From Paracoccaceae bacterium (GTDB taxonomy: Bacteria > Pseudomonadota > Alphaproteobacteria > Rhodobacterales > Rhodobacteraceae), in the NCBI GenBank assembly GCA_021741245.1, contig JAIOYF010000017.1:1-64000 (forward strand): DNA of 64,000 nucleotides, read 5' to 3'. A program made the position numbers and the translations under genes. A model generated the notes under the pieces. It saw nothing but the letters and a program-made list of their open reading frames with translations, was not told where the DNA came from and ran no database searches. This document shows, piece by piece, positions 13,013 through 36,088 of this stretch; positions within the stretch are counted from its first letter, which is position 1; the number at the start of each line of letters is the position of its first letter.

Positions 13013-13912
13013 ATGTCAGGTTTTCTCCACCATTGGTTGTCAGATTTTCGAAGTCCAAAGCCATATGTGATCTGGATCATTCTTACGATCATTATCGGCT
13101 TTGCCGGACCGTTCGATACGTATAGCTCGGGCCCTTTGCCCAAGCGTCTGCTTCTTTGGTCATTGCTGATTTCGGCTGCTATTCTGATTGGTGTTTCAAA
13201 TCGTGCCTTTGTGTTCGGAGCCCTGAATCTGCGTGGTTTTTGGGATGGAACAATGCTTGTCGCGGGATTGAACGCGATATCGTTGCCACCAGTGATCGCG
13301 GCGATCATGTGGTCTGTCGATGCTGGTATGCATTTACCAAAGTATGATGAATTGGCAATCTTTGCCTTTTTGGTCACCTTGGGGGTGGGGGCCTATCGCA
13401 GAACCGTGCTCACCTGGCCGTTGGCAGCGATCGCCCCGCCGCCGGACAATCAAAAGCCTGCGGCTTCACATACCCCGGATGTGGCGTTGCCTGCGCCGGT
13501 CAAGTCAGCCCGAATACAGATGCGCTTGCCCGAGTTGCTCAGAGGCGATCTGATCGCGATTTCTGTGCGAGATCACTATGTGGATGTGTTCACCACAAAA
13601 GGCTCCATGGGTCTTTTGATGCGCCTGTCAGATGCGGTTGAAGAGACACTGCCGATTGATGGGGCAAGGGTGCATCGGTCCCACTGGGTGGCGTGGGATG
13701 CGGTGGAGGGTGTTGAGAAAAACGGTGAGCGTTTGCAATTGCGGATGTGCAATGGTGCGCTCGTTCCTGTTTCCAAGACCTATCGCGCCTTGGTTGAAGA
13801 GCGGGGCATCGGAATGGCCCGCGCCGACGCGCCACCGCAAAGGATCGCCACGGCGCCTTTGGTCATCAAGGAAGATAGGGCAGGGTCCTCGCACCAAAGT
13901 CCACCAGTATAG
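13013..13912 (+). CDS. Membrane-anchored LytTR-family transcription regulator
   Basis: 299 residues from ATG 13013 (AAGGA at 13003-13007). Four hydrophobic segments occupy the N-terminal half (about 18-36, 48-64, 75-98 and 108-125). After a linker, residues about 170-275 form a LytTR DNA-binding domain: LRGDLIAISVRDHYVDVFTTKG, then GARVHRSHWVAWDAV and RLQLRMCNGALVPVSKTYRALV. Such one-component proteins bind DNA from the membrane; the signal is unknown. The last 133 nt overlap the end of convergent pdeM, covering the region after the LytTR fold. Confidence 0.88.
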   Translation: MSGFLHHWLSDFRSPKPYVIWIILTIIIGFAGPFDTYSSGPLPKRLLLWSLLISAAILIGVSNRAFVFGALNLRGFWDGTMLVAGLNAISLPPVIAAIMWSVDAGMHLPKYDELAIFAFLVTLGVGAYRRTVLTWPLAAIAPPPDNQKPAASHTPDVALPAPVKSARIQMRLPELLRGDLIAISVRDHYVDVFTTKGSMGLLMRLSDAVEETLPIDGARVHRSHWVAWDAVEGVEKNGERLQLRMCNGALVPVSKTYRALVEERGIGMARADAPPQRIATAPLVIKEDRAGSSHQSPPV

Positions 13913-14463
13913 GTGCCAAAGGCGGGCAGGATGATCCGCGTGGCGTCACAGGCAAAGCAGCGCCATGACCGGCCCGCCAGCCGCGCCTTGGGGTGGTAAT
14001 GGCCCGAAACTTCGCCCTGCGCCCCCACCTCTGCGATATGGCGAAACACAATCCCGCCTTCATGGATCTCGCTGCGGTGGCTTCCCGCAATGTCGAGGGG
14101 GCCTGCATCGTGATTGCCCGCGATCCAATTCCAATCGCGCCCCGCCATCATCCGCAAAAGCCACAGCCGATCAGGGGTATCCAGACCCGTAAGGGCGGCG
14201 CTATCGTCGAAACTGTCACCGAGGCAGATCACCCTTGCGGCCCCGGTTGCCTCCAACTCGGTTTCCAGTCGCGTTAAGGTTTCGCGCGTTTCATAGGGCG
14301 GCAAAAGGCTTCCACCGCGTCGGGCCATCCGCTCGGACTTCCCCAAATGCAGGTCCGAGACAACCAAAAGCCCCCGCTCCGGCCAATAAAGCGCGCCCGA
14401 GGGGAGGGCCTCAAGCCTGTGCCCATGAAATGTAAGATGGTATGAAACGATTGCGTCGGACAT
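13780..14463 (-). CDS. pdeM: PdeM-type metallophosphoesterase (ligase-associated)
   Basis: 227 residues from ATG at 14463 (a longer open frame runs into the NRPS gene but has no family similarity). Calcineurin-like motifs: VVSDLHLGKSERMARRG, LGDSFDD, GNHDAGP and SGHYHPKA, the metal-binding D-H, GDxxD, GNHD and GHxH set. The family is a predicted DNA-repair-linked phosphoesterase usually beside a DEAD/H helicase Lhr and an ATP-dependent ligase; no such genes are seen here. Its last 44 codons overlap the LytTR gene tail to tail. Confidence 0.88.
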   Translation of the reverse strand: MSDAIVSYHLTFHGHRLEALPSGALYWPERGLLVVSDLHLGKSERMARRGGSLLPPYETRETLTRLETELEATGAARVICLGDSFDDSAALTGLDTPDRLWLLRMMAGRDWNWIAGNHDAGPLDIAGSHRSEIHEGGIVFRHIAEVGAQGEVSGHYHPKARLAGRSWRCFACDATRIILPAFGTYTGGLWCEDPALSSLMTKGAVAILCGGASARAIPMPRSSTKAR

Positions 14464-14593
14464 GCCTGCGATGTGCCGCAGCTGCGGGGCAAAAGGCAAG
14501 GGGCGGATATCCGAAAGCCCGCGATCCGCACCAGTGCAGCCAGAAGGTTGCAAGTGGTGCTCATCCGGCCCCGGTGATGGCGGAACCGTCGGT

Positions 14594-17500
14594 TCAATCC
14601 CCGGCTGGCGGGTCTGCAAGCACCTTGGCCATATGCACGGCGAGTGTTTCTACATTGGGCGGGGCAAGAATCGACAAATGGTCGCCCGGCACATCAAAGA
14701 CCTGAAAACCTGCCTCTGCAACCGAGGCCCAGCCAAGCCCTTCGGCGCGGCTTTCGGGGCTATCAAAGATGTTTTCCTCGGCCCGGAAGATGGTGAGCGG
14801 CAGATCGATGGGCTGCGCCTCATAGGCTTCGACGGCAAGTTCATTGGCAGCGACAAAAGAGCCGATGGTCATCGGGCTTGCCTCGCCCTTTTGGGTCGCC
14901 GCGCGTAGGCGCAGCTTTTCAACGCTATTGCGCAGGTTGACCAAGCGGTTCGACAAGATGTGCAGCAGATAGGCCGCACCTTCATGGCGTGCGCGGCGAA
15001 TATGGGCGGCAAAGCGCGCGCTGCCGCGCAGGCGCGAGCGCCCGCCCGGACCTTCCGCATCAAACAGCGCCAGCATCCGCACCTCGCGGCCAGCGGCCAA
15101 AAGCTGTTGTGCCAGATCAAAGGCGATGTAGCTGCCAAGCGATACGGCGGCAAGGCTGACTGGCCCCTTTGGGTGGTGCTGCTGAATATCCTCAAAATAC
15201 CGCTTTGCGGTTTCCTCGACTCCAATCGGCGTGTCTTGTGTCAGAAGTCCAACCGAGAGGCCAAAGAACGGTTGATCAGGGCCAAGGGCGCGGGCCAAGG
15301 GGCGATAATATTCCTCATTGCGGCCAAGAACATGCACCCCAAACAGCGGCGGCTTTGATCCGTTGGGTTGAATCGGGATGATATAGCGCGGCCCGCTTTG
15401 TGCTGCATCCACGGCGGCAGCAAGGGCCTTTGGAGTCGGGCAGTGGTGAAGGTCCGCCACGCCAAGGCGATGCCCAAGGTCGGCCTCAATCCGGCCGATC
15501 AGTTGCACGGCAAGCAAGGAATGCCCGCCCAGATCATGAAAACTATCGTCCGGGCCAATCTGGTCCAGCCCTAGCACCCTTGCCATCAATTCGGCCACAC
15601 GGCGGGTGGTCGGGTCTGTAGACTCGGTCGTGGTGACAGAGCTTGTGACCCGGTCCGGAAGGGGCAGCGCCTCCATATCGATCTTCCCGCCGGGGGTGCG
15701 GGGGAATTCGTCGATGGCGACAATGGCGGGCATCATGTGTGGCGGCAATTGCCCTGCCATGGTGTCGCGCAGGGCGGCGGCATCGGGGGTGCCATATCCT
15801 TCGGCCCCGGCGACCCACGCGGCCAGCCTTGCGCCGGGCGTCCCTTTTTCCAGCACCCGTGCCACGGCGCGCCCGACACTGGCATCACGCTCCAAAACCC
15901 GCTCCACATGCCGCAGGTCGACACGAAAGCCCCGGATTTTCACCTGACGATCCCGGCGGCCCAGAAAGGCCAAAGTGCCATCGTCGCGCCAGCGGGCGCG
16001 GTCGCCCGTGCGATACATGCGACCTTGTCCGGCAAAGCGGTCGCGCCGAAAGGCCTTTGCCGTTTCGTCTTCGCGTCCAATATAGCCATCGCTGACGGCC
16101 AGCCCGCCAATCCAGAGCTCGCCCGCCGTGCCCATGGGCGCCAGTGATCCGTCTGCCGCCAGAACATAGGCGCGGGCATGTGCCGTGGGGCGACCGATGG
16201 GAATATCCTCGCCCGGTGCCAGTGGCCCCGGTTCGTGCAAAGTGCAGGTGATCGTCGCCTCGGTGGGGCCATAGCCGTTAAGCCAACGTGGGCCGGGCGC
16301 AATGCGCTGCCATGTGGCAAGGGCGCGGGGGCTGATCTGCTCACCCCCAACAATCACCAGCCTCACGTGCGGCGGCAACGAACGAGCGTTGCGCGCCATG
16401 TCATCGACCAGCACATGCCAAAACGCGGTCGGAAGGTTCAGCACCGTGATGCCCTGCGCCTGCACCGCATCCAGAAAATCGGGCACTGCCCCGGCCATTT
16501 GGTCATCGCGCAGGATCAGATGGGCACCCGACAGCAGGGTCGGGATCACCTCTTCAATCGCCACGTCGAAGGACAGGCTGGCAAATTGCAAAACCTTGTC
16601 CTCGGGCGTCAGCGCAAACTCGGCCGAGATGGCGCTGGCATGGGCCGAAATCGCCCGCATCGGCACACGGACACCCTTTGGCGCGCCCGTGGAGCCAGAG
16701 GTGTAAATGACATAGGCCAGCCGATCCGGGTCCGGCGCGGGCCGGGGCGGTGGGGTGGCTTGGGCTTGGGCATTGGGTGAAATGAGGGTGATATCGGGGG
16801 GCGGTTCTGCCTGCGGGGCCGCAATCATCAGGCGCGTGCCGGAATCGGCCAACATATGCGCGATCACCGCCGCCGGATACGACGGGTCGATGGGCAGGAA
16901 CGCCGCACCCGCCTTTAGCGTGGCCAGCATCGCCACAATGAACTCGGGCGAGCGATCAAGGCAAATCGCGACGATCACGCCCGGAGCTGCGCCTTGCGCG
17001 ACCAACCTGTGCGCCAATCCGTTTGCACGTGCATCCAGTGCTGTATGGGTCAGACCTTCGCCATGCCCAACCATCGACAGCGCCGCCCGCCCGCCATGGG
17101 CAAGGACCGCTTGTTCATAGCGCGTGGCAAGGCAGGGGATGGCAGGGGGCAGTTTGCGCTCTGGCCGACCCTTGGTCAAAAGGGCGGCCTCTTCCCAGCG
17201 GGGCAGCATGGTCAAATGTTCCAGCGGCGTGCCGGGTTCGGATTTCGCGAAAGACGCCAGCAGTTCCACAAAATGGGTCAAAAGCGCACCCGCCTTTTGC
17301 GCAGGGATGCTGTTGGGGGCGTATTCCAGCGCAATCAGCATCTGGCGATCGGCATAGACGGCAAGCGTGACGGGAAGTGCCCCCTCTTCCCGCAGGGTCA
17401 CCCGGCGGTTTTCCCAGCCATTGCCCTTTTGGTGCATGGTCTGCTCAAGGCTGTTGCGCTCAAACATGACCATGGAGTCAAACATCGACACGGTGCCCGC

Positions 17501-18547
17501 AAGGCCGCACCAACGGCGAATATCTGTCAGGGCGGCATGTTCATGCGGGCGCATTGCCAAAGCATCACGCCTCAACTGCGCCAAGAGATCATCGCTTTGC
17601 CTGCCTGCGCCAGCCTGAACCTTGAGCGGAATGGTGTTGATCAGGCATCCAACGGTCCTGTCCGACCCGGCCAGCAAATGCCTGCCTGCACGGGTGACCC
17701 CAAAGACCGCATCATCGCGCCCGGTCCAGCGGGCCACCACCATGCCCCAAACCGCATGGATCACATTGGCCAATGTGGCCCCTGCGGCTTCGGCCCGGTT
17801 GGCCAACGCTTCGGTCAGATCAGCCTCCAGACGGCGCTCGATCTGCATCTTGCGGCCAAGGGTGGATGGTTCCGACAGATCCTCGGTCGTGGCCAGATCA
17901 TTGGGCTGATCAAACCCGTCAAGGTAGGTTTTGAAATGCACCACCGTTTCGGGGGACGGCCCCTTTGACAGGGCAAAGCAATAGTCGGAAAAGCTGGCGA
18001 CCATCCCGCCCGATGGGGCGCCGGTTGTGGGTTGGGCCAGTTCTGCAAACAGATCCTCCAGCACAATGGCGATGCTGCGCCCGTCAACCATCGCGTGGTG
18101 TACGGTCCAGATCATGACCGAACGCCGCGCGCCCAATCGGATCAACTGAACCCGCCAGCTGGGCGCTGCCTCCAGATCCACGCCGCGCTCGCGATCAGCG
18201 GTCAGAAAACGTTCAAGCGCAAGGGTTTGGCGTTTCGGGCTCAGGGCAGACCAATCCTCGACAGGCAGATCGACGGACATCTCGGGGTGGATCACCTGCA
18301 CGGGCGAGACACGTTTGCGCCATAGGATCGACAGCCGCAAAGCATCGTGGCGTTTGGCAACAGCGATCCACGCCGCCCGCAGGGCAGAGGGGTCAATCTC
18401 TTCGTCGTCTAGATGCACGACAACCTGTTCAAGGTTTACCCAAGGCTGACCGGCCAAGGCGCTTTCGTAGACCATGCCCAATTGCAGGGGGGTCAATCCG
18501 AATTCGACACGCCGCCCAGAAATCTGGTTCGCCTTTCCCATCTCCAT
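14594..18547 (-). CDS. Single-module non-ribosomal peptide synthetase (C-A-T-TE)
   Basis: 1317 residues. Condensation domain (about 15-450) has the active motif HHAMVDG at 150-156. Adenylation domain (about 480-960) shows IYTSGSTGAPKG, NGYGPTEATITCT, GELWIGG, YRTGDRARW and the A10 Lys in PGGKIDMEALP. The carrier domain has LGGHSLLAVQLI with Ser1010 for phosphopantetheine. A thioesterase (about 1050-1317) has Ser1136 in AVSLGSY, with a first Gly replaced by Ala, and a late His in GDHLSIL. By hand alignment the specificity residues read D-V-E-N-I-G-G-I-T-K, possibly an amino acid with a basic side chain; this is weak. It follows the flippase gene after 21 nt. The product is unknown. Confidence 0.95.
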   Translation of the reverse strand: MEMGKANQISGRRVEFGLTPLQLGMVYESALAGQPWVNLEQVVVHLDDEEIDPSALRAAWIAVAKRHDALRLSILWRKRVSPVQVIHPEMSVDLPVEDWSALSPKRQTLALERFLTADRERGVDLEAAPSWRVQLIRLGARRSVMIWTVHHAMVDGRSIAIVLEDLFAELAQPTTGAPSGGMVASFSDYCFALSKGPSPETVVHFKTYLDGFDQPNDLATTEDLSEPSTLGRKMQIERRLEADLTEALANRAEAAGATLANVIHAVWGMVVARWTGRDDAVFGVTRAGRHLLAGSDRTVGCLINTIPLKVQAGAGRQSDDLLAQLRRDALAMRPHEHAALTDIRRWCGLAGTVSMFDSMVMFERNSLEQTMHQKGNGWENRRVTLREEGALPVTLAVYADRQMLIALEYAPNSIPAQKAGALLTHFVELLASFAKSEPGTPLEHLTMLPRWEEAALLTKGRPERKLPPAIPCLATRYEQAVLAHGGRAALSMVGHGEGLTHTALDARANGLAHRLVAQGAAPGVIVAICLDRSPEFIVAMLATLKAGAAFLPIDPSYPAAVIAHMLADSGTRLMIAAPQAEPPPDITLISPNAQAQATPPPRPAPDPDRLAYVIYTSGSTGAPKGVRVPMRAISAHASAISAEFALTPEDKVLQFASLSFDVAIEEVIPTLLSGAHLILRDDQMAGAVPDFLDAVQAQGITVLNLPTAFWHVLVDDMARNARSLPPHVRLVIVGGEQISPRALATWQRIAPGPRWLNGYGPTEATITCTLHEPGPLAPGEDIPIGRPTAHARAYVLAADGSLAPMGTAGELWIGGLAVSDGYIGREDETAKAFRRDRFAGQGRMYRTGDRARWRDDGTLAFLGRRDRQVKIRGFRVDLRHVERVLERDASVGRAVARVLEKGTPGARLAAWVAGAEGYGTPDAAALRDTMAGQLPPHMMPAIVAIDEFPRTPGGKIDMEALPLPDRVTSSVTTTESTDPTTRRVAELMARVLGLDQIGPDDSFHDLGGHSLLAVQLIGRIEADLGHRLGVADLHHCPTPKALAAAVDAAQSGPRYIIPIQPNGSKPPLFGVHVLGRNEEYYRPLARALGPDQPFFGLSVGLLTQDTPIGVEETAKRYFEDIQQHHPKGPVSLAAVSLGSYIAFDLAQQLLAAGREVRMLALFDAEGPGGRSRLRGSARFAAHIRRARHEGAAYLLHILSNRLVNLRNSVEKLRLRAATQKGEASPMTIGSFVAANELAVEAYEAQPIDLPLTIFRAEENIFDSPESRAEGLGWASVAEAGFQVFDVPGDHLSILAPPNVETLAVHMAKVLADPPAGD

Positions 18548-18568
18548 CCTGCGCTTTCCCTCCTTCGG

Positions 18569-19942
18569 CTAAGGTCCGACCCCAAAAAGCGCAATCAGGG
18601 CGCGGATTGCTGTTTGGTCGGCGACAAGGACCGTGATCCCAAGCGCCAAGCCCACAGCGGCGAAAATACTGTCATGCAACGGATCCCAAGCGCCATGACG
18701 CCGGGCAAGCCACACCAGAATGGGATAGACGGCAATCGTGGCAATACATTGACCAATCAGCGCACCAACCAGACCCATCATTTCGGCCCCCGTGATCATG
18801 CCAATCACAAGGAGCAGGGCGCGCGCGGCTGTCAGCAAGAAATAGTTTCTGCTATCCCCCGCCGCGAGGGCGGATTGGTCATACGTCATTCCAATGACCT
18901 GTGGGATCTGGATCACCGCGATCAGAACCAAAATACCCCCGGCATCTGAATAGCGCGCATCGTAAAGCAGGCCCACCAGCCATTCCCCACTAAAGGCCAT
19001 GATCGCCAGCATCACAAACAGGGCACCCGTGAGGCTAAGGCGCATCCGTTGAATTTTCGTGAAGTTCTCGGCGGAGTCTTTCGGCGGGCTTTCACGGTAA
19101 AGGGGTATGAGGATGCGGCCCGTAACAGTTTGGCCCAAAAGCAAAGGGAACGAGGCAAGGAAAAAGCCGATGTTGTAGAGGCCAAGGTGTTCAAGTGTCA
19201 GGTATTTGCCAAGAATGGCCTTATCACCCTGCGCCACCAAAAATCCGCAAGCGGTTGACAGGAACAACCAAAAGCCAAAATGCATCAAGTCCCGTGCGGC
19301 ATCTGGTTCCCACCGGATACGGTTGCGTTGCCCAGACAGAAACGTGTTCATCAACACCAGCTTGGCCAAGGACGACACGATCCATCCCGCGACCAAGGCC
19401 CAGACCGATTGGAACACAAAGGCAAGGATCACCATCGAGACGATCCCTATTGCCTGCGAGATCAGATCAAGCAAGGTGACGCGGCCCACCTTTAGATGGC
19501 GGATCGCCGTTTCGATCCGTGTCGGCTCAAACCCGTTGATCAGCAGGGATATTCCGGCCACTGGCAAAAGCCAGATCAAGTCCGGGTGCCCATAGAACGC
19601 GGCGACCGGAAAGGCCATGACGCAGGTGGCCAGAAACAAGATAACGCCGCGTGCCAGTTGTATGGTCCATGCGGTATCAAGGAAATCTTGTTCGTCGCCG
19701 CGCTTGTGCTGCAAGATGGAGGGGCCGGTGCCCACATCCGAAAACATTGTCAGCCCGACAAGGAACACGGAGACAAGCGCCATCATCCCAAAGGCTTCGG
19801 GGAACAAAAGACGCGTCAGGATCAGGTTTGAGGCCAGCCGCATGGCCTGCGACGCACCATAACCAAGGGCGGTCCAGGCCGAACTTCGCATGACTCGCGC
19901 AAAAAGCCCTTCACCGCGCAAACGTGACAAAAGCGGGCTCAT
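18569..19942 (-). CDS. Wzx-type polysaccharide / lipid-linked glycan flippase
   Basis: 457 residues from ATG at 19942, preceded by AGGA 8 nt upstream. About 12-14 hydrophobic segments and an early motif SAWTALGYGASQAMRLASNLILTRLLFPEAFGMMALVSV, typical of the MOP-superfamily polysaccharide export proteins (PF01943/PF13440 type). Such proteins flip lipid-linked sugars, and sometimes lipid intermediates of other kinds, across the inner membrane. It lies in the same direction between the glycosidase-like gene and the NRPS, without glycosyltransferases nearby. Confidence 0.9.
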   Translation of the reverse strand: MSPLLSRLRGEGLFARVMRSSAWTALGYGASQAMRLASNLILTRLLFPEAFGMMALVSVFLVGLTMFSDVGTGPSILQHKRGDEQDFLDTAWTIQLARGVILFLATCVMAFPVAAFYGHPDLIWLLPVAGISLLINGFEPTRIETAIRHLKVGRVTLLDLISQAIGIVSMVILAFVFQSVWALVAGWIVSSLAKLVLMNTFLSGQRNRIRWEPDAARDLMHFGFWLFLSTACGFLVAQGDKAILGKYLTLEHLGLYNIGFFLASFPLLLGQTVTGRILIPLYRESPPKDSAENFTKIQRMRLSLTGALFVMLAIMAFSGEWLVGLLYDARYSDAGGILVLIAVIQIPQVIGMTYDQSALAAGDSRNYFLLTAARALLLVIGMITGAEMMGLVGALIGQCIATIAVYPILVWLARRHGAWDPLHDSIFAAVGLALGITVLVADQTAIRALIALFGVGP

Positions 19943-19967
19943 CAATAATATCCTGCACAACGCGACG

Positions 19968-19987
19968 AAGGCGGATCGCTCCGCCTT
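19968..19987 (-). other. Hairpin in the leader of the flippase gene
   Basis: On the minus strand AAGGCGGA and TCCGCCTT pair perfectly around a GCGA (GNRA) tetraloop. It sits between the glycosidase-like gene and the flippase start, about 25 nt before the ATG. No T run follows, so it is more likely an RNA-stability or processing element than a terminator. Confidence 0.45.
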
Positions 19988-20101
19988 TACTGCGCACGAC
20001 CCTGCCCGAGACATGTGGCCGGATCAAGGCGAGAACGTGCGAGGCATGGTTTCCCCAAGCGGGGGGATGCAGGATTTATAGGCGTTTCCGGGCTGAAAGC
20101 G

Positions 20102-22366
20102 TTACATAAAGCGCGCCAGACTGGCCAGAAGGCCCATCAGTGCCGCCCCAAATGCCGATCCCGCAAAGGTCGAGATTTCGGCGACCATGGACGAGGGTTG
20201 ATCATCTTCCTCTTCGGGCTGTTCCTCGGGCACATCTTCCTCCTTGAGGAGAAGCTGCGAAAGGTCGTCATCGCTATCACCTGCCTCGATGCCTGTGCTG
20301 CTTTGGGCCTCTGTGTCGGGTTCGTTCGCGTCTGGCGACGGGTCTTCGTGCGTTTCCGTATCAGGGGTGGTGACCACAGCTTCTGGGAAAAGTTCTGCAA
20401 TCGCCGAAAATGCCGAGTGATCCAGCCCCTGCACGGCAGTGTCTGATCCTGTCGAGGCGGCAGCACGGTGAACAAACGACGTGTCCGGGGTCGCACCATG
20501 CGCTTCTGTGTCGTCCTGAGCCAGAACCTCCTGTGCAGGCAGCGCTGAATTCGAAATGGTCGCTGAAGCGGTGGATGTGTAGGTCGGGGCCACTGGTGCT
20601 GGTGGTACAATCTGGCTTGCCGTTTCCAGCCCTGCGATCTCTGACTTGTAGTCGCCTGCCTGCGAACCTTCATAAGGCGACCCGATCTCTTCGGCGTCAT
20701 GCCGTGAAGTGCCAAGAGAAGGATCAACACCGGCCAATGGCAACAGAAGGCTTGCAGAATCGGATACATGGTCGACCGAGGCAAATTCTGCCGTGGATCC
20801 GGCGGATTTTTCAAAATCCGGATCCCCGGCCCATTCCGAGATCAGGGCTGCTTCTTCTTGGCTATGGGCCACCAGAATGCGCACAACTTGTCCCGGTTGG
20901 GTGAAGGTGACGGTGACCTGATCGCCCTCTATCGTTGTCTCCACGTCACCGCGCACGCCAAGGGCATAGGTTTGCCCTTCATTGCTTTCATCGACATTCG
21001 GATTGTCGGGAACTCCAAAGCGTTCCATCCAATCGGCAGGCACCTCGGAGGTCAAAGACTCTGTCCAGACGGCTGCATAGCCGCTGTCCAAGCCTTCGAT
21101 CTGGACCGTGACATCGCCCACGACGGTGTCATCATCTGACGCCAGAAAGACCACCACCCGGTCATCGCCCTCATAGGCATAGGTCCACAGATCACTGGAT
21201 CGAGTGTTTTCTTCGGATACCTCCAGAACCTGCGTGCCCTCGACGCTTTCGTAGATCATCGAGATCATCTCGGCCCCGACAAACTGCACCGGATTGCCAT
21301 CCACATCCGTATAGGTCATCCGGCCGGCATGCATCAGATCCGCCGCATGGATCGACGCGGCCCCAAGGCCTTCGGCCTGATATTCCGAAAACAACTCCAG
21401 ATATAGCTTTGGCACTGCCACGCCATAGTCACGGGTTGACAGCAACTCTTGCCAAAAGTTTTCAAACTCGGTGCTTGTGCGCCCTGCAAGGTCAATATCG
21501 GACCGATGGACGGTCATCCCCTCTTTGGCCATATCACGGATGTAACTGGTCAGCCCCTCGGACCGGGTGACCGAGGCCACGTTCCATTCGCTCAGATGAA
21601 TCTGCGGTGGCTCGCCGCCCACCTCGGTGACGTCTTGCTGCCAGGCATCAAGGATGGGGCTAAAGGGTTTGAGGTTGAAATCAATCCCCTCGGCCTGTGC
21701 GGCATAGCGATGATGCATGACCAGATCGACATTGGCCAAGGACTCGTCTGAAAAGCTGTCGCGGATGGTTTCATCCTCGGCCATTGTCCGCCCGGCTTGC
21801 ACCGACAGATCGATGTCTGCGCCGATCAGGTTGACGGTCGGATCGTTCAGGGCATGGGTCAATTCCTCGACCATGGCTGCCGCCACGCGGCCATATTCCG
21901 CGGCCGCCCCATCGGGGCTCAGGCCCTGAAAATGGGCATAGTGTTCGCTGCCAACGTGAAAGATCAGGCGCTCGGGTAGGTGTCCGTATTCCCCTGACAG
22001 CAGGTCTTGCATGAAGTTCTGGATATCGACCCGCATCTCATCGATATGGCCCGAGTAGCGCACGGTGGGCAAAACGACCGACAGTTCAGCGCCTTGGTCA
22101 TTCGCGATCTGCATCATCTCGCTGAGGGACGGCATCTTGCTGTCAGCACTGGTCAGATCGTGGAATTCAAGACCATAGCTGCTGGTGCTTTCCTCGGCGA
22201 GGGTGCCGCCCGGCCAAGAAATGAGCCCGACATGCAGATCCTTGATCTGCTCGATAAAGCGATCAATGGAGCGAAATCCAGAGTACCGGACACCCAAGTC
22301 TGATGCGGTGATCTTCTCAACGCCTTCGACGACAGCATCGGCACCCGTGTTTATGGAAACAAACAT
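20102..22366 (-). CDS. Glycoside hydrolase-like TIM-barrel protein with acidic C-terminal tail
   Basis: 754 residues from ATG at 22366 (AGGAAA upstream). Residues about 1-370 look like a clan-A glycosidase barrel: HVGSEHYAH with Glu141 as candidate acid/base and IHLSEWNVAS with Glu260 as candidate nucleophile, on strands expected for GH39/GH51-like enzymes. A beta-sandwich-like part follows (about 370-510). Residues about 520-725 are low complexity and acidic (TDTEAHGATPD, EEDVPEEQPEEEDD), ending in a hydrophobic tail (AGSAFGAALMGLLASLARFM). There is no N-terminal signal peptide and no RTX repeat. First gene of a set with the flippase and NRPS. Substrate unknown; the family call is by eye. 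Confidence 0.65.
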   Translation of the reverse strand: MFVSINTGADAVVEGVEKITASDLGVRYSGFRSIDRFIEQIKDLHVGLISWPGGTLAEESTSSYGLEFHDLTSADSKMPSLSEMMQIANDQGAELSVVLPTVRYSGHIDEMRVDIQNFMQDLLSGEYGHLPERLIFHVGSEHYAHFQGLSPDGAAAEYGRVAAAMVEELTHALNDPTVNLIGADIDLSVQAGRTMAEDETIRDSFSDESLANVDLVMHHRYAAQAEGIDFNLKPFSPILDAWQQDVTEVGGEPPQIHLSEWNVASVTRSEGLTSYIRDMAKEGMTVHRSDIDLAGRTSTEFENFWQELLSTRDYGVAVPKLYLELFSEYQAEGLGAASIHAADLMHAGRMTYTDVDGNPVQFVGAEMISMIYESVEGTQVLEVSEENTRSSDLWTYAYEGDDRVVVFLASDDDTVVGDVTVQIEGLDSGYAAVWTESLTSEVPADWMERFGVPDNPNVDESNEGQTYALGVRGDVETTIEGDQVTVTFTQPGQVVRILVAHSQEEAALISEWAGDPDFEKSAGSTAEFASVDHVSDSASLLLPLAGVDPSLGTSRHDAEEIGSPYEGSQAGDYKSEIAGLETASQIVPPAPVAPTYTSTASATISNSALPAQEVLAQDDTEAHGATPDTSFVHRAAASTGSDTAVQGLDHSAFSAIAELFPEAVVTTPDTETHEDPSPDANEPDTEAQSSTGIEAGDSDDDLSQLLLKEEDVPEEQPEEEDDQPSSMVAEISTFAGSAFGAALMGLLASLARFM

Positions 22367-29415: not shown

Positions 29416-30417
29416 TTACATGCCCTTTGCGGCCATCAGCGGACCGGTGTTGATGCGGCCCTCATAGCTGTCAAGCGCTGACGGGATCGCACCCGCGCCA
29501 ACGAAGACCCCGGCCACGCCCTTCATAAACACCGCGGAGCCGCCGCCAAGCCACTTGGCGGACAATTGGTCGTCGATGGATGGGAAGACAAAGGTCGACA
29601 TATCGGCCTTGGCCTTTTCCAGATCCATGCCCGCGTCCTTGGCAATCACTGGCAGCATCTCTGCCTGCTTGGAACCTTCGTTCCACATGGCGTTTGCATC
29701 TGCCGTAACCTTGACGAACTTGGCGACAAGATCGCCGTTTTCGGCAATGAATGCCGCAGGTGCCGAAGTGACGTCGAACACCAAGATGCCAAGGTCTTCC
29801 TTTTCCGCGCCGGTCAGCAAGACATTGCCATGCTCTTTCATCCGGCCAAGTCCGCCGCCATAGCCGCAGGCCATGTCAACGGAGCCCTGCGCGATGGCCG
29901 CAGCGCCCTCTGGGGGTGCCATGTCGACAATCTCAAGCGAGGCAAGGTCGATCCCGAAATGGTCCATCTGCTTGAGAAAGCCATAGTGGGCCGCGGTGCC
30001 AAGTGGCACGGCCACCTTTTTGCCAGCAAGGTCTGCAGCGTTGTCTTTGGTGATCTCAAGATCGGTGCGCACCACACAGTTGTCATTGTCGGAATAGCTG
30101 ACGGCCACATCAATGACCTGCAAATCCTGCCCGGCGCTGGTGGCAACCACGAAAGGCGGCACGCCTTGGCTAAGGGCGATATGCACATCACCCGAGGCCA
30201 TGGCCGCAGACATGGCGGTGCCGGTGTCAAACGCGACCCAGTTCACTTTGACGCCCATTTCTTTGTCATAGGTGCCCATGGACTTGGCGTATTCAAAGGG
30301 CATTGGCCATTCGAGGAAGTAGGCCACCGTGATTTCATCCATCGCCATCGCGGCGCCCGATCCCGCCAGCAAAGCCGCGCCCGCGACTGCACCCATCAAG
30401 GTCTTGCGAAGTGTCAT
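29416..30417 (-). CDS. tauA: Taurine ABC transporter substrate-binding protein
   Basis: 333 residues with a signal peptide (MTLRKTLMGAVAGAALLAGS, cleavage near AMA-MDEI). The mature part is a NMT1/SsuA-like periplasmic binding protein (EITVAYFLEWPMPFEYAKSMG, GDVHIALSQGVPPFVVATSAGQDL). GGAGG precedes the ATG. Divergent from tpa across 300 nt that carry the proposed TauR repeats. Confidence 0.93.
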   Translation of the reverse strand: MTLRKTLMGAVAGAALLAGSGAAMAMDEITVAYFLEWPMPFEYAKSMGTYDKEMGVKVNWVAFDTGTAMSAAMASGDVHIALSQGVPPFVVATSAGQDLQVIDVAVSYSDNDNCVVRTDLEITKDNAADLAGKKVAVPLGTAAHYGFLKQMDHFGIDLASLEIVDMAPPEGAAAIAQGSVDMACGYGGGLGRMKEHGNVLLTGAEKEDLGILVFDVTSAPAAFIAENGDLVAKFVKVTADANAMWNEGSKQAEMLPVIAKDAGMDLEKAKADMSTFVFPSIDDQLSAKWLGGGSAVFMKGVAGVFVGAGAIPSALDSYEGRINTGPLMAAKGM

Positions 30418-30718
30418 TCGTTTAGTCCTCCGTGTTGGTTTTTTGCGTTTGTTCTTAAGACTTCTATTGGTCAGGGCCTTTTGTTTTCTGTCTAGCGGGT
30501 TTGGCTGGGTTCAGGAAAACGGAACCCGTTCTTCCGCAACCGACATCCCCCCTAGTCGCTGATCTTTGCCGCACAATACTACAGCGCAAAATGTTTTTGT
30601 AACTGGCCCTATCAACGCAAGGCCTCTGGCCCTACGATTGCGCACTTCAAAGGCAGATGCTGCGCGCAGCAGATCAGCGGGGTTCCCGGGTGGTCGATTT
30701 GTCTTTGAGAGGGACATC
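30418..30718. promoter_or_regulatory. Divergent tauA/tpa intergenic region
   Basis: About 300 nt between the taurine transporter genes (minus) and tpa (plus). It holds the tauA ribosome site (GGAGG near 30427-30431), the proposed TauR direct repeats at 30603-30634, and the tpa ribosome site GAGAGGGA (about 30707-30714). No clear sigma-70 boxes were identified for either direction. Confidence 0.55.
30603..30634 (+). promoter_or_regulatory. Proposed TauR operator of tpa (direct repeat)
   Basis: CTGGCCCTA occurs at 30603-30611 and again at 30626-30634, a 23-nt period (about two helical turns). The same word with the same period lies upstream of xsc. MocR-family regulators are known to bind direct repeats, and tauR is encoded close by, so TauR is the likely ligand. 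Inferred, not tested. Confidence 0.65.
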
Positions 30719-32098
30719 ATGGAAGGTTTCAGCGCAGCGAATGACATCTCGGACGTGGTCGAAGCAGATCGCGTTCATGTCTGGCATCACCTGAGCCAGC
30801 ACAAAGCCTATGAAACCGCCGATCCGCGGGTGATCGTCGAAGGCAAGGGGATCAGGGTTTGGGATGCCAAGGGCAAAGAGCATATTGATGCCGTCTCGGG
30901 TGCGGTCTGGACCGTAAACGTGGGTTATGGGCGGGAAAGCATTGCCAATGCGGTGCGCGACCAATTGCTGAAGATGAACTATTTCGCAGGGGCCGCAGGA
31001 ACCGTGCCGGGCGCTGTCTTTGCCAAACGTCTGATCGAAAAGATGCCGGGGATGAGCCGGGTGTATTATTCGAACTCGGGCTCCGAGGCGAATGAAAAGG
31101 TCTACAAGATGGTGCGCCAGATCGCGCACAAACATCATGGCGGCAAGAAGTGGAAAATCCTGTATCGGGAGCGGGACTACCACGGCACCACCATTGCCAC
31201 GCTGGCCACAAGCGGCCAGATCCAGCGCGCCGAGCAATATGGGCCGTTCCCCGATGGCTTTGTGATGGTTCCGCATTGCCTTGAATACCGCAAGCAATGG
31301 GATGTCGAAAACTATGGCGAACGCGCAGCGCAAGCCATCGAAGAGGTGATCTTGCGCGAAGGGGCCGACACGGTTGGCTGCCTTGTGCTTGAGCCGGTAA
31401 CCGCAGGCGGCGGCGTCATCGTTCCCCCCGATGGGTATTGGGAAAAGGTGCAAGAGATTTGCCGCAAGTACGACATCTTGCTGCACATCGACGAGGTGGT
31501 CTGCGGCGTGGGCCGGACGGGCACATGGTTTGGCTATCAGAACTACGGCATCAAGCCGGATTTCGTGACCATGGCCAAGGGTGTGGCCAGTGGATATGCG
31601 GCGATTTCCTGCACCGTCACAACCGAGGCGGTGTTTGACAAGTTCAAGGATGATCCAAGCGATCCGATGAGCTATTTCCGCGATATCAGCACGTTTGGCG
31701 GCTGCACCGGTGGCCCGGCGGCGGCGCTGGAAAACATGCGCATCATTGAAGATGAGGGCCTTCTTGCCAATACCTTGGCGATGAGTGATCGTCTGTTAGG
31801 CAACCTCAACGCCTTGATGGACAAGCACAAGGTCATTGGCGATGTGCGTGGCAAGGGGCTGTTTTGCGGCGCGGAACTGGTCTCGGACCGCGCCACGAAA
31901 GAAGCGGCCGATGAAAAGCGCGTTCAGGCCGTTGTTGCCGATTGCATGGCCCAAGGGGTGATCATCGGGGCCACCAACCGCTCACTTGCCGGGTTGAACA
32001 ATACGCTGTGCCTTGCGCCAGCATTGATTGCGACGGCAGATGACATCGACCAGATCACCAATGCCATCGACGGCGCATTGGGCCGGGTGTTCGGCTAA
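30719..32098 (+). CDS. tpa: Taurine--pyruvate aminotransferase
   Basis: 459 residues from ATG 30719, the codon with a good ribosome site; the frame is open further upstream. A class III PLP aminotransferase: VDAVSGAVWTVNVGYGRESIANAVRDQL, YYSNSGSEANEKVYKMVRQIAHKHHG, YHGTTIATLATSGQ, the Asp of LLHIDEVVCGVGRTG and the PLP Lys in TMAKGVASGY. It transfers the amino group of taurine to pyruvate, giving sulfoacetaldehyde and alanine, the first step of taurine dissimilation. Identity over other omega-transaminases rests on tauABC, tauR and xsc. A terminator follows. Confidence 0.94.
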   Translation: MEGFSAANDISDVVEADRVHVWHHLSQHKAYETADPRVIVEGKGIRVWDAKGKEHIDAVSGAVWTVNVGYGRESIANAVRDQLLKMNYFAGAAGTVPGAVFAKRLIEKMPGMSRVYYSNSGSEANEKVYKMVRQIAHKHHGGKKWKILYRERDYHGTTIATLATSGQIQRAEQYGPFPDGFVMVPHCLEYRKQWDVENYGERAAQAIEEVILREGADTVGCLVLEPVTAGGGVIVPPDGYWEKVQEICRKYDILLHIDEVVCGVGRTGTWFGYQNYGIKPDFVTMAKGVASGYAAISCTVTTEAVFDKFKDDPSDPMSYFRDISTFGGCTGGPAAALENMRIIEDEGLLANTLAMSDRLLGNLNALMDKHKVIGDVRGKGLFCGAELVSDRATKEAADEKRVQAVVADCMAQGVIIGATNRSLAGLNNTLCLAPALIATADDIDQITNAIDGALGRVFG

Positions 32099-32121
32099 GG
32101 AGCGGATTTCGCGTCAGAAAG

Positions 32122-32147
32122 GGGCTGCCCGGCGGGTAGCCCTTTTT
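32122..32147 (+). terminator. Rho-independent terminator after tpa
   Basis: GGGCTGCCC (32122-32130) and GGGTAGCCC (32134-32142) pair over 9 positions with one G-U around loop GGC and are followed by TTTTT (32143-32147). It ends the tpa transcript before tauR. Confidence 0.85.
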
Positions 32148-32210
32148 GTTTGGCCACGGGTTAAGGTCGATTGCCGCGTATGGGGGCGGCCTGTCGGTTT
32201 CGGGGGGCGA

Positions 32211-32219
32211 TAGGTCCAG
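32211..32219 (-). promoter_or_regulatory. TauR-like half-site upstream of tauR, reverse
   Basis: TAGGTCCAG reads CTGGACCTA on the minus strand, one variant of the CTGGMCYTA word found at tpa and xsc. The flanks match the site at 32301-32313 (TCATCTGGACYTA, 12 of 13 on the opposite strand). Possible autoregulatory element. Confidence 0.4.
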
Positions 32220-32304
32220 ATGACGTGGGCCTGTGCCCATGATCATGGATTTTTGCCAAAGATCTGCACAACCCATTGCCACGGAAGCAAAGTGCGCGCT
32301 TCAT

Positions 32305-32323
32305 CTGGACTTAACCAAAGTCC
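32305..32323. promoter_or_regulatory. TauR-like site next to the tauR start
   Basis: CTGGACTTA at 32305-32313 overlaps an inverted repeat GGACTT-N5-AAGTCC (32307-32323). It ends 8 nt before the tauR ATG, so binding here could block tauR translation or transcription. Autoregulation is inferred. Confidence 0.45.
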
Positions 32324-32331
32324 GAGGTGCC

Positions 32332-33798
32332 ATGTCGATTCCTGCCGAAGCCTTCTTCCTGCCGCCGGGGGCTGCGGGCACGCTGCAAAGCCGCATTCGT
32401 GCGATGGTGGTGCAGGGCATTCTCGCCGGGCGTTTGCGGCCGGGTGACAAGATGCCCTCCAGCCGGGGGTTGGCGCAGCATCTTGGGATCAGCCGGATCA
32501 CGGTGACGCTGGCCTATGCCGATCTGGTGTCTTCGGATTACCTGATGGCCAAGGGGCGCTCGGGCTATTTCGTTTCTGACACCGCGCCGCGGGCGCAAGA
32601 ATTCCCCCTCGCCCCCAAACGGGATGAAGGGGTGGATTTCACCGCCCTGACGGGCGCACGCTTTTCGCGCCAGTTGCGGCTTGCAAAGCCGGACGATTGG
32701 CAAACCTATCCCTATCCCTTTATCTATGGGCAGGCGGATGCATCGCTTTTTGATCATCAGAACTGGCGGCATTGCGCCCTGCGTGCCCTTGGCAAGCGCG
32801 ATTTCGCGGCGCTGACCTCCGACTACTACGAACGAGATGATCCCATTTTGATCGAGCAGATCCTGCGCACCATTCTGCCGCGTCGGGGCATTGCGGCACG
32901 GGCGGAGGAGGTGCTTTTGACCATGGGCGCGCAGAACGCGCTGTGGATCGCGGCACAGGTGTTGCTGGGTCCGGGGCGACGGGCGGTGGTGGAAAATCCC
33001 GGATATCCGGGGCTTCGGGCGATTTTGGAACCCTCGGGCACCGAGGTTCTTCCTGTTGATGTCGATGAGGACGGCCTGCCCCCTGAACGGGTGCAAGGCG
33101 CGGATGTGGTTTTCACCACCGCCTCACATCAATGCCCGACCAATGCCACCATGCCCGTGGCGCGGCGGGTGGCCCTGTTGGAGGCGGCCAGCCGCGAGGG
33201 ATTTGTCATCGTCGAGGATGACTATGAATTTGAGATGTCGTTTTTGAAACCAGTGGCCCCTGCGCTGAAGTCGCTGGATCGTGAGGGGCGGGTGATCTAT
33301 GCGGGCTCGTTTTCCAAATCGATCTTTCCGGGGCTGCGGCTGGGTTATCTGGTGGCCAGTCCCAGTTTCATCGCCGAAGCACGGGCCTTGCGCGCCATGA
33401 TGTTGCGCCATCCACCGGGGCATATCCAACGCACGGTCGCCTATTTTCTGGCCGACGGGCACTATGATGCGCTGATCAACCGGATGCGCACCGCCTTTCG
33501 CCGCCGCCGTCAGGCGATGGAAGAGGCGATTGCCGAACAGGGGCTTACCGTGGCGGGGCAGGGTGGTTTTGGCGGTTCGTCCATCTGGATGCGCGCGCCG
33601 GACGGTGTGGATACCGAGGTCATGGCCCAAAGATTACGGGCCGATGGCGTGCTGATCGAACCGGGCCGCGCCTTTTTCCATCCGTCGCGGTCCAGCAACC
33701 GCTTTTATCGTCTTGCCTACTCCTCCATCCCGCCTGACCGTATTCACAAGGGGATAGGCTTGATCGCAAACGCCATTGGAAAGACTGTGTCGGTGTAG
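32332..33798 (+). CDS. tauR: Taurine-responsive MocR/GntR regulator TauR
   Basis: 488 residues from ATG 32332. An N-terminal winged helix of GntR type (TLQSRIRAMVVQGILAGRLRPGDKMPSSRGLAQHLGISRITVTLAYADLVSSDYL) is fused to a fold-type I aminotransferase domain (about 120-488) with NPGYPGLRAIL, VEDDYEFEM and the PLP Lys in YAGSFSKSIFPGLRLGYL. MocR regulators sense an amino compound through PLP. Its place between tpa and xsc, and repeats shared by both promoters, support taurine control. Confidence 0.93.
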   Translation: MSIPAEAFFLPPGAAGTLQSRIRAMVVQGILAGRLRPGDKMPSSRGLAQHLGISRITVTLAYADLVSSDYLMAKGRSGYFVSDTAPRAQEFPLAPKRDEGVDFTALTGARFSRQLRLAKPDDWQTYPYPFIYGQADASLFDHQNWRHCALRALGKRDFAALTSDYYERDDPILIEQILRTILPRRGIAARAEEVLLTMGAQNALWIAAQVLLGPGRRAVVENPGYPGLRAILEPSGTEVLPVDVDEDGLPPERVQGADVVFTTASHQCPTNATMPVARRVALLEAASREGFVIVEDDYEFEMSFLKPVAPALKSLDREGRVIYAGSFSKSIFPGLRLGYLVASPSFIAEARALRAMMLRHPPGHIQRTVAYFLADGHYDALINRMRTAFRRRRQAMEEAIAEQGLTVAGQGGFGGSSIWMRAPDGVDTEVMAQRLRADGVLIEPGRAFFHPSRSSNRFYRLAYSSIPPDRIHKGIGLIANAIGKTVSV

Positions 33799-33800
33799 GG

Positions 33801-34160
33801 TCAGGAGCCGAGATTGAGTCCACGGCTGCGCGCAAAGGACCGACAGTATTTCATCCAGTCACGATATTCTTCTGTGATGAAAAGCGCAGGGCCTTTCGCT
33901 TCCCATTCGGCGGATTTTTGATCAATCCGGTCCCAGACCGAGATCGGGTCAAGCGGATTACCCTCGGCGCAACTCTGGTCATAGGCGCTATCTGCCCAAA
34001 GGCGCGCGGCGCGCAACAGCTTTTCCGACGCCTGTTCGCTGGTGACGAACTGGGCGGAATTTTGATACAGTGCCGCACATTCCAGCATGCTTTCACTAAA
34101 GGGCTGGGCCATCACATTGAACGGGGCAAGAACGAAAAGGCCAAGAAGGAAAGGGCGCAT
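33801..34160 (-). CDS. Small secreted protein of unknown function
   Basis: 119 residues with a signal peptide (MRPFLLGLFVLAPFNVMAQP). The mature protein has three Cys (MLECAALYQ, DQSCAEG, MKYCRSFARS) and several helices. I do not recognise the family, though similar short Cys proteins occur in Rhodobacterales. It is convergent with tauR (2-nt gap) and divergent from xsc across 152 nt. A link to taurine is not shown. Confidence 0.65.
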   Translation of the reverse strand: MRPFLLGLFVLAPFNVMAQPFSESMLECAALYQNSAQFVTSEQASEKLLRAARLWADSAYDQSCAEGNPLDPISVWDRIDQKSAEWEAKGPALFITEEYRDWMKYCRSFARSRGLNLGS

Positions 34161-34228
34161 GGCTGGGCTTACCGGTGTTGGGAGGCTTGGATTTTTCCAG
34201 ATCTTCGTGGCATGAATATGTCGATCTT

Positions 34229-34260
34229 CTGGCTATAGTCCGCAAGCGATACTGGCCCTA
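34229..34260 (+). promoter_or_regulatory. Proposed TauR operator of xsc (direct repeat)
   Basis: CTGGCTATA (34229-34237) and CTGGCCCTA (34252-34260) repeat with a 23-nt period, identical in spacing to the pair upstream of tpa. The second copy matches the tpa word exactly. It lies 53 nt before the xsc ATG. Confidence 0.65.
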
Positions 34261-34312
34261 TCCTTATCCCCGCGCCGCCGTAGTGTCTGCCCAAGTCACG
34301 GGAGAAAAAGCC

Positions 34313-36088
34313 ATGCGCATGACCACCGAAGAAGCCTTTGTCAAAACCCTGCAATTGCATGGGATCGAACATGCCTTTGGCATCATCGGCTCGGCCTTCA
34401 TGCCGATTTCGGATCTGTTCCCGCGCGCGGGGATCACGTTTTGGGATTGCGCGCATGAAGGCAGCGGCGGGATGATGGCCGATGGCTACACGCGGGCGTC
34501 GGGCAAGATGAGCATGATGATCGCCCAGAACGGCCCCGGCATCACCAATTTCGTGACCGCCGTGAAGACCGCCTATTGGAACCACACGCCGCTTTTGCTG
34601 GTCACACCACAGGCCGCCAACAAGACCATCGGCATGGGCGGCTTTCAGGAAGTCGAACAGATGGCGCTGTTCAAGGACATGGTCGCCTATCAGGAAGAGG
34701 TGCGCGACCCCTCGCGCGTGGCCGAGGTGCTGAACCGCGTCATCATCAACGCCCGCCGCCATTCTGCCCCGGCACAAATCAACATGCCGCGCGATTACTG
34801 GACTCAAGTGATCGACATCGACCTGCCGCTTCCGGTGGAGTTTGAGCGCCCGATGGGCGGCGAGGCCGCGATGGCAGAGGCCGCGGCCCTGCTGTCGGGC
34901 GCCAAGTTTCCGGTGATCCTGAACGGCGCGGGCGTGGTGATCGGCGGCGCGATCCCGGCCAGCATGGTGCTGGCTGAACGCTTGGATGCCCCGGTTTGCG
35001 TGGGCTATCAGCACAACGATGCCTTCCCCGGCAGCCATCCGCTGTTTGCGGGGCCGTTGGGCTATAACGGCTCCAAGGCAGGGATGGAGTTGATCAGCAA
35101 GGCGGACGTGGTTTTGTGCCTTGGCACGCGGCTGAACCCGTTTTCGACCCTGCCGGGCTATGGGCTGGACTACTGGCCAAAGGACGCCAAGATCATTCAG
35201 GTCGATATCAACCCCAACCGGATTGGTCTGACCAAAAAGGTCAGTGTGGGCATTGTGGGCGATGCGAAAAAGGTGGCCGAAGGGCTGCTGGCCCGTCTGT
35301 CAGCCACGGCAGGGGATGAGGGGCGCACGGCGCGCAAGGCCATGATCGCGCAAACGAAATCGGCGTGGGCACAGGCTCTGTCCTCGATGGACCATGAAGA
35401 TGACGATCCGGGCACCACATGGAACCAGCGCGCCCGCGATGACAAGCCCGATCGGATGAGCCCGCGGATGGCGTGGCGTGCGATTCAGGCAGCACTACCG
35501 AAAGAGGCGATCATCTCCAGCGATATCGGCAACAACTGCGCCATCGGCAACGCCTATCCGACGTTCGAAACAGGCCGCAAATATCTGGCGCCGGGGCTGT
35601 TTGGCCCCTGTGGCTATGGCCTGCCGTCGATCGTGGGGGCCAAGATCGGCTGCCCGGAGACGCCGGTGGTGGGCTTTGCGGGCGACGGGGCCTTTGGCAT
35701 CGCGGTGACGGAACTGACGGCGATCGGCCGCCCGGAATGGCCCGCAATCACCATGGTGGTGTTCCGCAACTATCAGTGGGGCGCGGAAAAGCGCAACTCA
35801 ACCCTTTGGTATGACGACAACTTTGTGGGCACCGAGTTGGACGAGCAGGTATCCTATGCGGGCATCGCGCAGGCCTGCGGATTGCAAGGCGTGCAGGCCC
35901 GCACGATGGACGGTTTGCGCGACGCACTGGCAAAGGCGATTGATGATCAGATGAAGCATGGCAAGACCACGCTGATCGAGGCGATGATCAATCAGGAATT
36001 GGGCGAACCCTTCCGCCGTGACGCAATGAAAAAGCCGGTCGAGGTGGCGGGCATTTCCAAGGCTGACATGCGCCCACAATTGGCATGA
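34313..36088 (+). CDS. xsc: Sulfoacetaldehyde acetyltransferase
   Basis: 591 residues from ATG 34313 (GGAGA upstream). A thiamine-diphosphate enzyme of the acetolactate synthase superfamily: CAHEGSGGMMADGYTRASGK holds the cofactor-activating Glu, NGPGITNFVTAVKTAYWNHTP follows, and the TPP-binding GDGAFGIAVTEL...NYQWGAEKRN is near residues 455-490. It cleaves sulfoacetaldehyde with phosphate to sulfite and acetyl phosphate in the cytoplasm. The stop overlaps the next gene by 4 nt, so exporter, acetate kinase and sulfite dehydrogenase genes are in the same operon. Confidence 0.97.
   Translation: MRMTTEEAFVKTLQLHGIEHAFGIIGSAFMPISDLFPRAGITFWDCAHEGSGGMMADGYTRASGKMSMMIAQNGPGITNFVTAVKTAYWNHTPLLLVTPQAANKTIGMGGFQEVEQMALFKDMVAYQEEVRDPSRVAEVLNRVIINARRHSAPAQINMPRDYWTQVIDIDLPLPVEFERPMGGEAAMAEAAALLSGAKFPVILNGAGVVIGGAIPASMVLAERLDAPVCVGYQHNDAFPGSHPLFAGPLGYNGSKAGMELISKADVVLCLGTRLNPFSTLPGYGLDYWPKDAKIIQVDINPNRIGLTKKVSVGIVGDAKKVAEGLLARLSATAGDEGRTARKAMIAQTKSAWAQALSSMDHEDDDPGTTWNQRARDDKPDRMSPRMAWRAIQAALPKEAIISSDIGNNCAIGNAYPTFETGRKYLAPGLFGPCGYGLPSIVGAKIGCPETPVVGFAGDGAFGIAVTELTAIGRPEWPAITMVVFRNYQWGAEKRNSTLWYDDNFVGTELDEQVSYAGIAQACGLQGVQARTMDGLRDALAKAIDDQMKHGKTTLIEAMINQELGEPFRRDAMKKPVEVAGISKADMRPQLA

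Follow-up and report, generated by a model that had tools for sequence, protein, structure and literature searches.

A Wzx-type flippase gene coupled to a one-module non-ribosomal peptide synthetase gene in a Paracoccaceae bacterium: a probable displaced part of a polysaccharide system

Introduction

Gene clusters for Wzx/Wzy-dependent exopolysaccharides combine a PF02397-type sugar transferase, glycosyltransferases (GTs) of the GT4 and GT2 families, a Wzz-like protein, a tyrosine-kinase-like ATPase, a MOP flippase and a polymerase-like membrane protein. Here we describe a related arrangement in a 64,000-nucleotide stretch of DNA from a Paracoccaceae bacterium (hereafter the window; C16:1-64000 of a 4.2-Mb genome of 27 contigs, G000), in which the gene for a Wzx/MOP-type flippase is directly followed by that for a stand-alone non-ribosomal peptide synthetase (NRPS) consisting of one condensation-adenylation-carrier-thioesterase (C-A-T-TE) module. 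Counterparts of, or candidates for, the components listed above are present, but a type I polyketide synthase (PKS), a second type of NRPS (FT-A(LLM)-T, described below), a phosphopantetheinyl transferase (PPTase) and sometimes the C-A-T-TE NRPS are added to them, and the flippase gene of the window genome lies on another contig than the cluster. Most likely, this flippase is a displaced member of a PKS/NRPS-polysaccharide system that is widespread, and the NRPS coupled to it is an accessory enzyme often encoded near polysaccharide genes.

Single parts of this arrangement have described counterparts. In rhizobia, the rkpA-type PKS of the K-antigen system is a PKS/fatty acid synthase-like enzyme required for a surface polysaccharide; it is likened to the present system by description only, having such an enzyme and a surface polysaccharide in common. 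AB3403 from A. baumannii (PDB 4zxh) and EntF are also single C-A-T-TE polypeptides, a likeness seen at the level of domain layout, and to our knowledge neither is a polysaccharide enzyme. The TE of Pks13, which transfers an acyl chain to the sugar trehalose, resembles the TE of the window NRPS in sequence, but belongs to a PKS and acts with mycolate and trehalose.

The nearest described genomic setting is that of the 68-71 kb rhamnose-operon plasmids of Phaeobacter. On plasmid pP92_d, the window NRPS has an orthologue (53% over 1432 aligned columns) with the same pocket code. This orthologue probably corresponds, though not by direct matching, to Inhi_3983 of pInhi_D69 (PMC4062626). These plasmids differ from the window in having no flippase match at an E-value of 1e-60, and in a few records the NRPS is seemingly split over several features. 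One PKS and three NRPSs were reported for P. inhibens under secondary metabolism, with the NRPS homologue of strain DSM 17395 (PGA1_c28490, a presumed orthologue) located on the chromosome; Inhi_3983 lies on a 69-kb plasmid dominated by polysaccharide genes, and the available excerpts of that paper draw no connection between the two (PMC4062626). The 69-kb replicon of P. gallaeciensis has been linked to an attached lifestyle (PMC4148982). In the accessible excerpts of the CC-licensed PMC literature, we found no paper linking these NRPS/PKS genes to a polysaccharide.

Results and discussion

The flippase and synthetase genes are coupled in the genus

The two genes and their parts are as follows (window positions; aa, amino acids).
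18569..19942, minus strand: Wzx/MOP-type flippase, 457 aa from the corrected start (Pfam, orthologue alignment)
18548..18568, minus strand: 21-bp spacer from the flippase stop to the NRPS ATG, with a GGAGGG ribosome-binding-like site
14594..18547, minus strand: stand-alone one-module NRPS, C-A-T-TE, 1317 aa (Pfam domains, motifs, pocket code)
17177..18496, minus strand: condensation domain, aa 18-457, HHAMVDG motif (Pfam and motif)
15683..17113, minus strand: adenylation domain, aa 479-955, pocket code DVENIGGITK (Pfam and pocket code)
15410..15601, minus strand: carrier protein, aa 983-1046, LGGHSL (Pfam and motif)
14630..15349, minus strand: thioesterase, aa 1067-1306, AVSLGS nucleophile elbow with Asp and His (Pfam and motif)

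An earlier note on this DNA had described three open frames on one strand, the third being a glycosidase-like gene treated below, and had named a polysaccharide-type flippase and a complete C-A-T-TE synthetase among their products; the open frames, the flippase and the synthetase were borne out. The flippase matched PF13440 with 170.5 bits (cut-off 23) and PF01943 with 86.6 bits (cut-off 28.2), and was the only match in the window genome at an E-value of 1e-30. Its start is more likely at 19942 than at 20014, since the translation then begins with MSPLLSRLRG, like those of the orthologues. In the NRPS, the Condensation, AMP-binding, PP-binding and Thioesterase domains all scored above the Pfam cut-off, with the catalytic motifs present, including a Ser/Asp/His set in the TE; AMP-binding_C scored 16.5 bits, below its cut-off of 24.5. 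The dN/dS values of both genes (0.12-0.23 in the pairs compared) indicate purifying selection.

Thirteen of the 16 genomes in our genus sample encode the NRPS, without exception directly after the flippase. The two frames overlap by 4 bp in ten of them and by 1 bp in one, and are separated by about 20 bp in two, including the window. A tree with a midpoint root placed the 14 labelled genus flippases in one clade (support 100/99); the genus label did not extend to a distant hit in G297 (L117), and the fragments of G308, whose contig stops inside the flippase, were left out. The flippase hit in G297 reaches only 34%, and this genome has neither the NRPS nor the FT-A(LLM)-T enzyme. A further record of the same genus (L103) holds an NRPS equal to that of genome G301. 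Directly downstream of the NRPS, an aldose 1-epimerase gene is found in 7/13 genus genomes (Pfam-confirmed in three). Beyond the family, the NRPS matched one of the 289 genomes of the class sample, namely its own genome.

The polysaccharide cluster of the genome has no flippase gene

A polysaccharide cluster is located elsewhere in the window genome, at about 146.8-170.4 kb of contig C11 (G000:C11; L125/L126), and does not include a flippase gene. Its products include GTs, a sugar transferase, a Wzz-like protein and a PPTase, together with a type I PKS and an NRPS of the formyltransferase-A(LLM)-T type (FT-NRPS). The earlier note had remarked that GTs and a PPTase were lacking, which is true of the three genes and not of the genome. 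Typical clusters of the family encode, besides a sugar transferase and a Wzz-like protein, a tyrosine-kinase-like ATPase, GT4 and GT2 enzymes and a PPTase. They further include a type I PKS (about 2150 aa), a GT2 and an FT-NRPS of about 1540 aa, which is composed of a formyltransferase, an adenylation domain split by a luciferase-like monooxygenase (LLM; TIGR04020) and a carrier domain. The GTs were identified by Pfam, and the sugar transferase through sequence identity and a PF02397 match in a relative; the Wzz-like and kinase-like proteins matched below cut-off, and the polymerase candidate (fam11) gave no family match. The pocket code of the FT-NRPS in the two genomes examined is DILQ[LM]GMIWK, which we take to be a glycine code.

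Twelve of the 16 genus genomes allowed the cluster site to be read (the contigs of G301 and G302 begin at the GT4 gene, G308 gave no GT4 match and G297 no close orthologues). None of these 12 clusters has a flippase near the EpsE-like GT4, the sugar transferase or Wzz, and three of them also lack the sugar transferase at that site. Outside the genus, the flippase is part of the cluster in six of seven outgroup loci: it stands between the EpsE-like GT4 and the sugar transferase in five (L143, L080, L055, L085 and L060) and beside the sugar transferase in L059. A search of the genus clusters for a flippase remnant, which did not take in the outgroup loci L059, L060 and L142, gave nothing above chance (two hits, E 0.5-0.9). 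The simplest reading is that the flippase gene would have been relocated out of the cluster once, in the genus ancestor.

Across the family, 34 flippase loci were opened. One or more reference genes of the polysaccharide or PKS/NRPS type lie within six genes of the flippase in 33 of them, and six of the 33 carry just one such gene; the exception is in G034. The window flippase most likely serves a polysaccharide, since by tree and gene contexts it groups with the flippases of polysaccharide clusters and is the single match in its genome.

Flippase, FT-NRPS and synthetase co-occur across the family

The family sample comprised 295 genomes, one per genus except for one pair. The flippase was found in 108, the FT-NRPS in 106, both in 98 and neither in 179 (Fisher odds ratio 219, phylogeny not being taken into account in this and the following statistics). 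The flippase threshold used here, an E-value of 1e-30, lets in nine genomes at about 44% identity or below, all of which were counted; seven of these are without an FT-NRPS and two (G185, G294) have one. The search for the window-type NRPS at 1e-100 matched 17 genomes, eight of which were counted, with full-length matches of at least 43% identity. The other nine (28-36% identity) were treated as different NRPSs, and both of those checked have other pocket codes. All eight NRPS genomes fall among the 98 with flippase and FT-NRPS (hypergeometric p = 1.2e-4; p = 1.1e-3 for the six outside the genus). In the genus sample, 14 of 16 genomes have the FT-NRPS, the exceptions being G297 and G304, the latter an incomplete genome.

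Gene contexts of the synthetase beyond the genus

Outside the genus, the NRPS recurs in several polysaccharide settings, given here as raw neighbour-gene counts without a chance baseline. It lies inside a PKS/NRPS polysaccharide cluster in G126, on a Paracoccus liaowanqingii plasmid and on a plasmid of P. marcusii CP157, and on two more Paracoccus plasmids it is about 2 kb from the flippase; the distance between the two genes is about 0.8-2 kb on four Paracoccus plasmids and about 4 kb in G126. On three Sulfitobacter plasmids, two of them from one strain, the NRPS is found by rfbCBD, with a MarR gene in between in one case. As many as 51 Phaeobacter plasmid records match the NRPS, and on pP92_d, the only one opened, it is surrounded by GT4, pyruvyl transferase and rhamnose genes. 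G222 has two copies. One is near a GT4 that looks EpsH-like by eye and a protein of the cluster family fam1 (see below). The other (L083:7531-16549) is beside OpgC, a family-2 GT and MdoG, a periplasmic-glucan context hinting that aminoacylated glucans may be made there. Separately, a Hint-domain and RTX protein is encoded beside an NRPS copy at L081:14281-16014.

The adjacency of flippase and NRPS might also be a rearrangement accident that became fixed in one genus, with the two proteins belonging to separate pathways. The NRPS is indeed far from the flippase in G075, G038, G200, G178 and G222. An accident is nevertheless quite improbable, as the overlap of the frames in ten of 13 genus genomes, the close linkage on the Paracoccus plasmids and in G126, and the presence of flippase and FT-NRPS in every family genome with the NRPS all speak against it.

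Function of the coupled synthetase

We consider it reasonably probable that the flippase is the Wzx of the C11-type polysaccharide system and that the coupled NRPS supplies an aminoacyl or peptidyl substituent. This reading is carried by the linkage and co-occurrence of the genes, the absence of the flippase from the cluster and the near-fixed pocket code of the NRPS, whose chemistry we infer. The earlier note had proposed a membrane-linked or glycan-attached NRPS product; the linkage, the co-occurrence and the contexts in relatives favour this direction and support the proposal in part. About one third of the sampled relatives have the system, whose polymer would seem to bear an amino-acid or acyl group of non-ribosomal origin.

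Several observations weigh against this reading. Of the 98 genomes that encode both flippase and FT-NRPS, 90 are without the window-type NRPS, and flippase and FT-NRPS are themselves found separately, FT-NRPS without flippase in eight genomes and a flippase hit without FT-NRPS in ten. In G304 (87% complete), flippase and NRPS are present yet there is no FT-NRPS match, and in G302 the flippase is alone on a 3.4-kb contig without the NRPS. The flippase of the outgroup locus in G034 (L142) is apart from polysaccharide genes. On pP92_d, an amino-acid ABC transporter is encoded directly downstream of the NRPS, and P. marcusii KGP has NRPS and flippase on different plasmids, with no gene listed for that of the NRPS in an incomplete gene table. 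The NRPS loci of G038, G200 and G178 are orphans with no polysaccharide neighbour. Downstream of the NRPS, G304 encodes FecCD, a periplasmic binding protein and HemS, which are of the haem-uptake type and directly adjoin it (L106:1-2793), and G305 has an imelysin gene.

The last of these observations would suit an NRPS that makes a small soluble metabolite, such as a siderophore, a signal or an acyl-amino acid, with the flippase as its exporter or a mere neighbour: iron/haem-type genes adjoin the NRPS in these two of the 13 genus genomes, none being noted among the neighbours checked in the annotated plasmid regions of Phaeobacter, Paracoccus and Sulfitobacter, and three loci are orphans. The C-A-T-TE enzyme also resembles the NCBIfam models MxcG and EntF, far below their cut-offs, and the P. 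inhibens NRPSs, including the one on the 69-kb polysaccharide plasmid, were filed under secondary metabolism (PMC4062626). We nevertheless regard such a metabolite as unlikely. The flippase clusters with polysaccharide flippases and is the only match in the genome at an E-value of 1e-30, and the NRPS turns up in polysaccharide settings of several kinds.

The sequence of the NRPS gives some indication of its substrate and reaction. With pocket positions that we took from GrsA, all 24 orthologues (39-100% identity) have the code DVEN[IV]G[GSA][IV]TK, and two more distant rows have different codes. We found no code of the DVENIGGITK type among published codes in the CC-licensed PMC literature. 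The nearest published one, DVENAGVVTK, belongs to the Ahp position of cyanopeptolins (PMC2533009) and serves as a lead only, by which the window NRPS would perhaps select a C5 amino acid. The HHxxxDG motif is intact in 23 of the 24 orthologues, the exception being PHALLDG in Sulfitobacter faviae, and the first Gly of the TE motif GxSxG is replaced by Ala or Ser in all of them. The solved C domains nearest to that of the NRPS are those of McyB, PvdL, bacitracin synthase 3 and TycB. Its TE resembles in sequence the solved TEs of AB3403 (closest), 'NRPS 4', a PKS and Pks13; the similarity to the Pks13 TE extends over almost the full domain (E 1e-8 to 2e-6).

From these data, the following mechanism may be proposed for the polysaccharide system. 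The flippase gene would have left the cluster and become coupled to a stand-alone C-A-T-TE NRPS of the same polysaccharide biology. In the cytoplasm, the sugar transferase and the GTs would build a lipid-linked repeat unit. An acyl or aminoacyl group would be made by the FT-A(LLM)-T enzyme, the type I PKS and the C-A-T-TE NRPS once the PPTase of the cluster has primed them. The NRPS may condense its own amino acid, perhaps a C5 one, with a donor, and its TE could move the product onto the sugar, by analogy to the trehalose-acylating TE of Pks13. Wzx would then flip the decorated unit, and the glycosidase-like protein, where present, might trim the polymer outside the cell. More tentatively, and with somewhat more doubt than confidence, the repeat unit could be decorated or interspersed with a formyl-glycine/polyketide/amino-acid unit, giving a polyketide-peptide-polysaccharide hybrid in about one third of the sampled family genomes, with the TE-terminated NRPS of some lineages transferring directly to the lipid-linked sugar before flipping.

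If correct, this would tie to surface polysaccharide, in a large family, PKS/NRPS genes that are placed under secondary metabolism in the single Phaeobacter genome paper in which we found them named (PMC4062626), and would explain the presence of the NRPS on a Phaeobacter polysaccharide plasmid. The presence of a non-ribosomally made residue on a matrix polymer is a testable claim.

The glycosidase-like protein is an optional neighbour

The third open frame precedes the flippase on the same strand.
20102..22366, minus strand: glycosidase-like protein, 754 aa, optional neighbour (open frame, alignment, distribution)
20837..22366, minus strand: conserved N-terminal part, aa 1-510 (alignment)
20105..20836, minus strand: low-complexity acidic tail with hydrophobic C-terminus

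The frame is real, as indicated by purifying selection (dN/dS about 0.26-0.28 in the pairs compared), and this part of the earlier description as a clan-A glycosidase-like gene stands. Its clan-A identity remained unconfirmed: no glycoside hydrolase (GH) family was matched, and two single-sequence models had a mean pLDDT of 38 and 41. The protein gave no match in Pfam or NCBIfam, nor in a profile search of the PDB, and searches with single members of the alignment gave six weak hits, none of them to glycosidases. E141 (VGSE) is invariant in all ten aligned sequences, and E260 (SEWN/GEWN) is present in four, the genus members, with Ala in five of the other rows and Ser in one. RTX motifs are absent from the window protein; five distant relatives have 5-8 of them (Pfam-confirmed in two), which makes type I secretion plausible for the family. 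A role of this protein in trimming the polymer may be supposed.

The earlier note had treated the three genes as one set, and a self-contained three-gene system with an essential glycosidase-like protein would be the corresponding explanation. Strand and order are the same in G305 and G303, and in G308 the glycosidase-like gene adjoins the contig-cut flippase. The gene is beside the flippase in only four of the 16 genus genomes, being not so placed in the other 12 (further relatives are found elsewhere in G302 and G303), and the family sample shows no enrichment: six of 17 genomes with any glycosidase-like relative hold flippase and FT-NRPS, not above the overall 98/295. GTs and a PPTase are absent among the three genes, and are encoded together with a PKS and a second NRPS elsewhere in the genome. 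The distribution thus largely refutes the three-gene system, which we consider very unlikely. That the genes stay together in relatives is true of flippase and NRPS in the genus, and not of the glycosidase-like gene; outside the genus flippase and NRPS are often apart. No glycosidase-like relatives were found on plasmids.

The cluster family fam1 (L078:12988-15623 and relatives) is a pair or fusion of proteins of about 312 and 566 aa that recurs in polysaccharide clusters. The 566-aa protein looks glycosidase-like by eye only; fam1 has no Pfam or NCBIfam match, and a PDB search with the 566-aa family gave none. Homology between fam1 and the glycosidase-like family was rejected (hhalign probability 0.3%).

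Other features of the window

Five promoters and nine terminators were predicted in the window, against 2.9 and 8.5 in shuffled sequences, which is uninformative, and no RNA families were found in it. Just downstream of the NRPS, at 13780-14619, is an ordinary PdeM-type ligase-associated phosphoesterase (NCBIfam TIGR04123). A taurine/sulfonate region of ordinary make-up extends over 29416-37934 and encodes the sulfoacetaldehyde acetyltransferase Xsc (above cut-off), a taurine-type ABC binding protein and an acetate kinase (both below cut-off), an aminotransferase and a MocR-like regulator.

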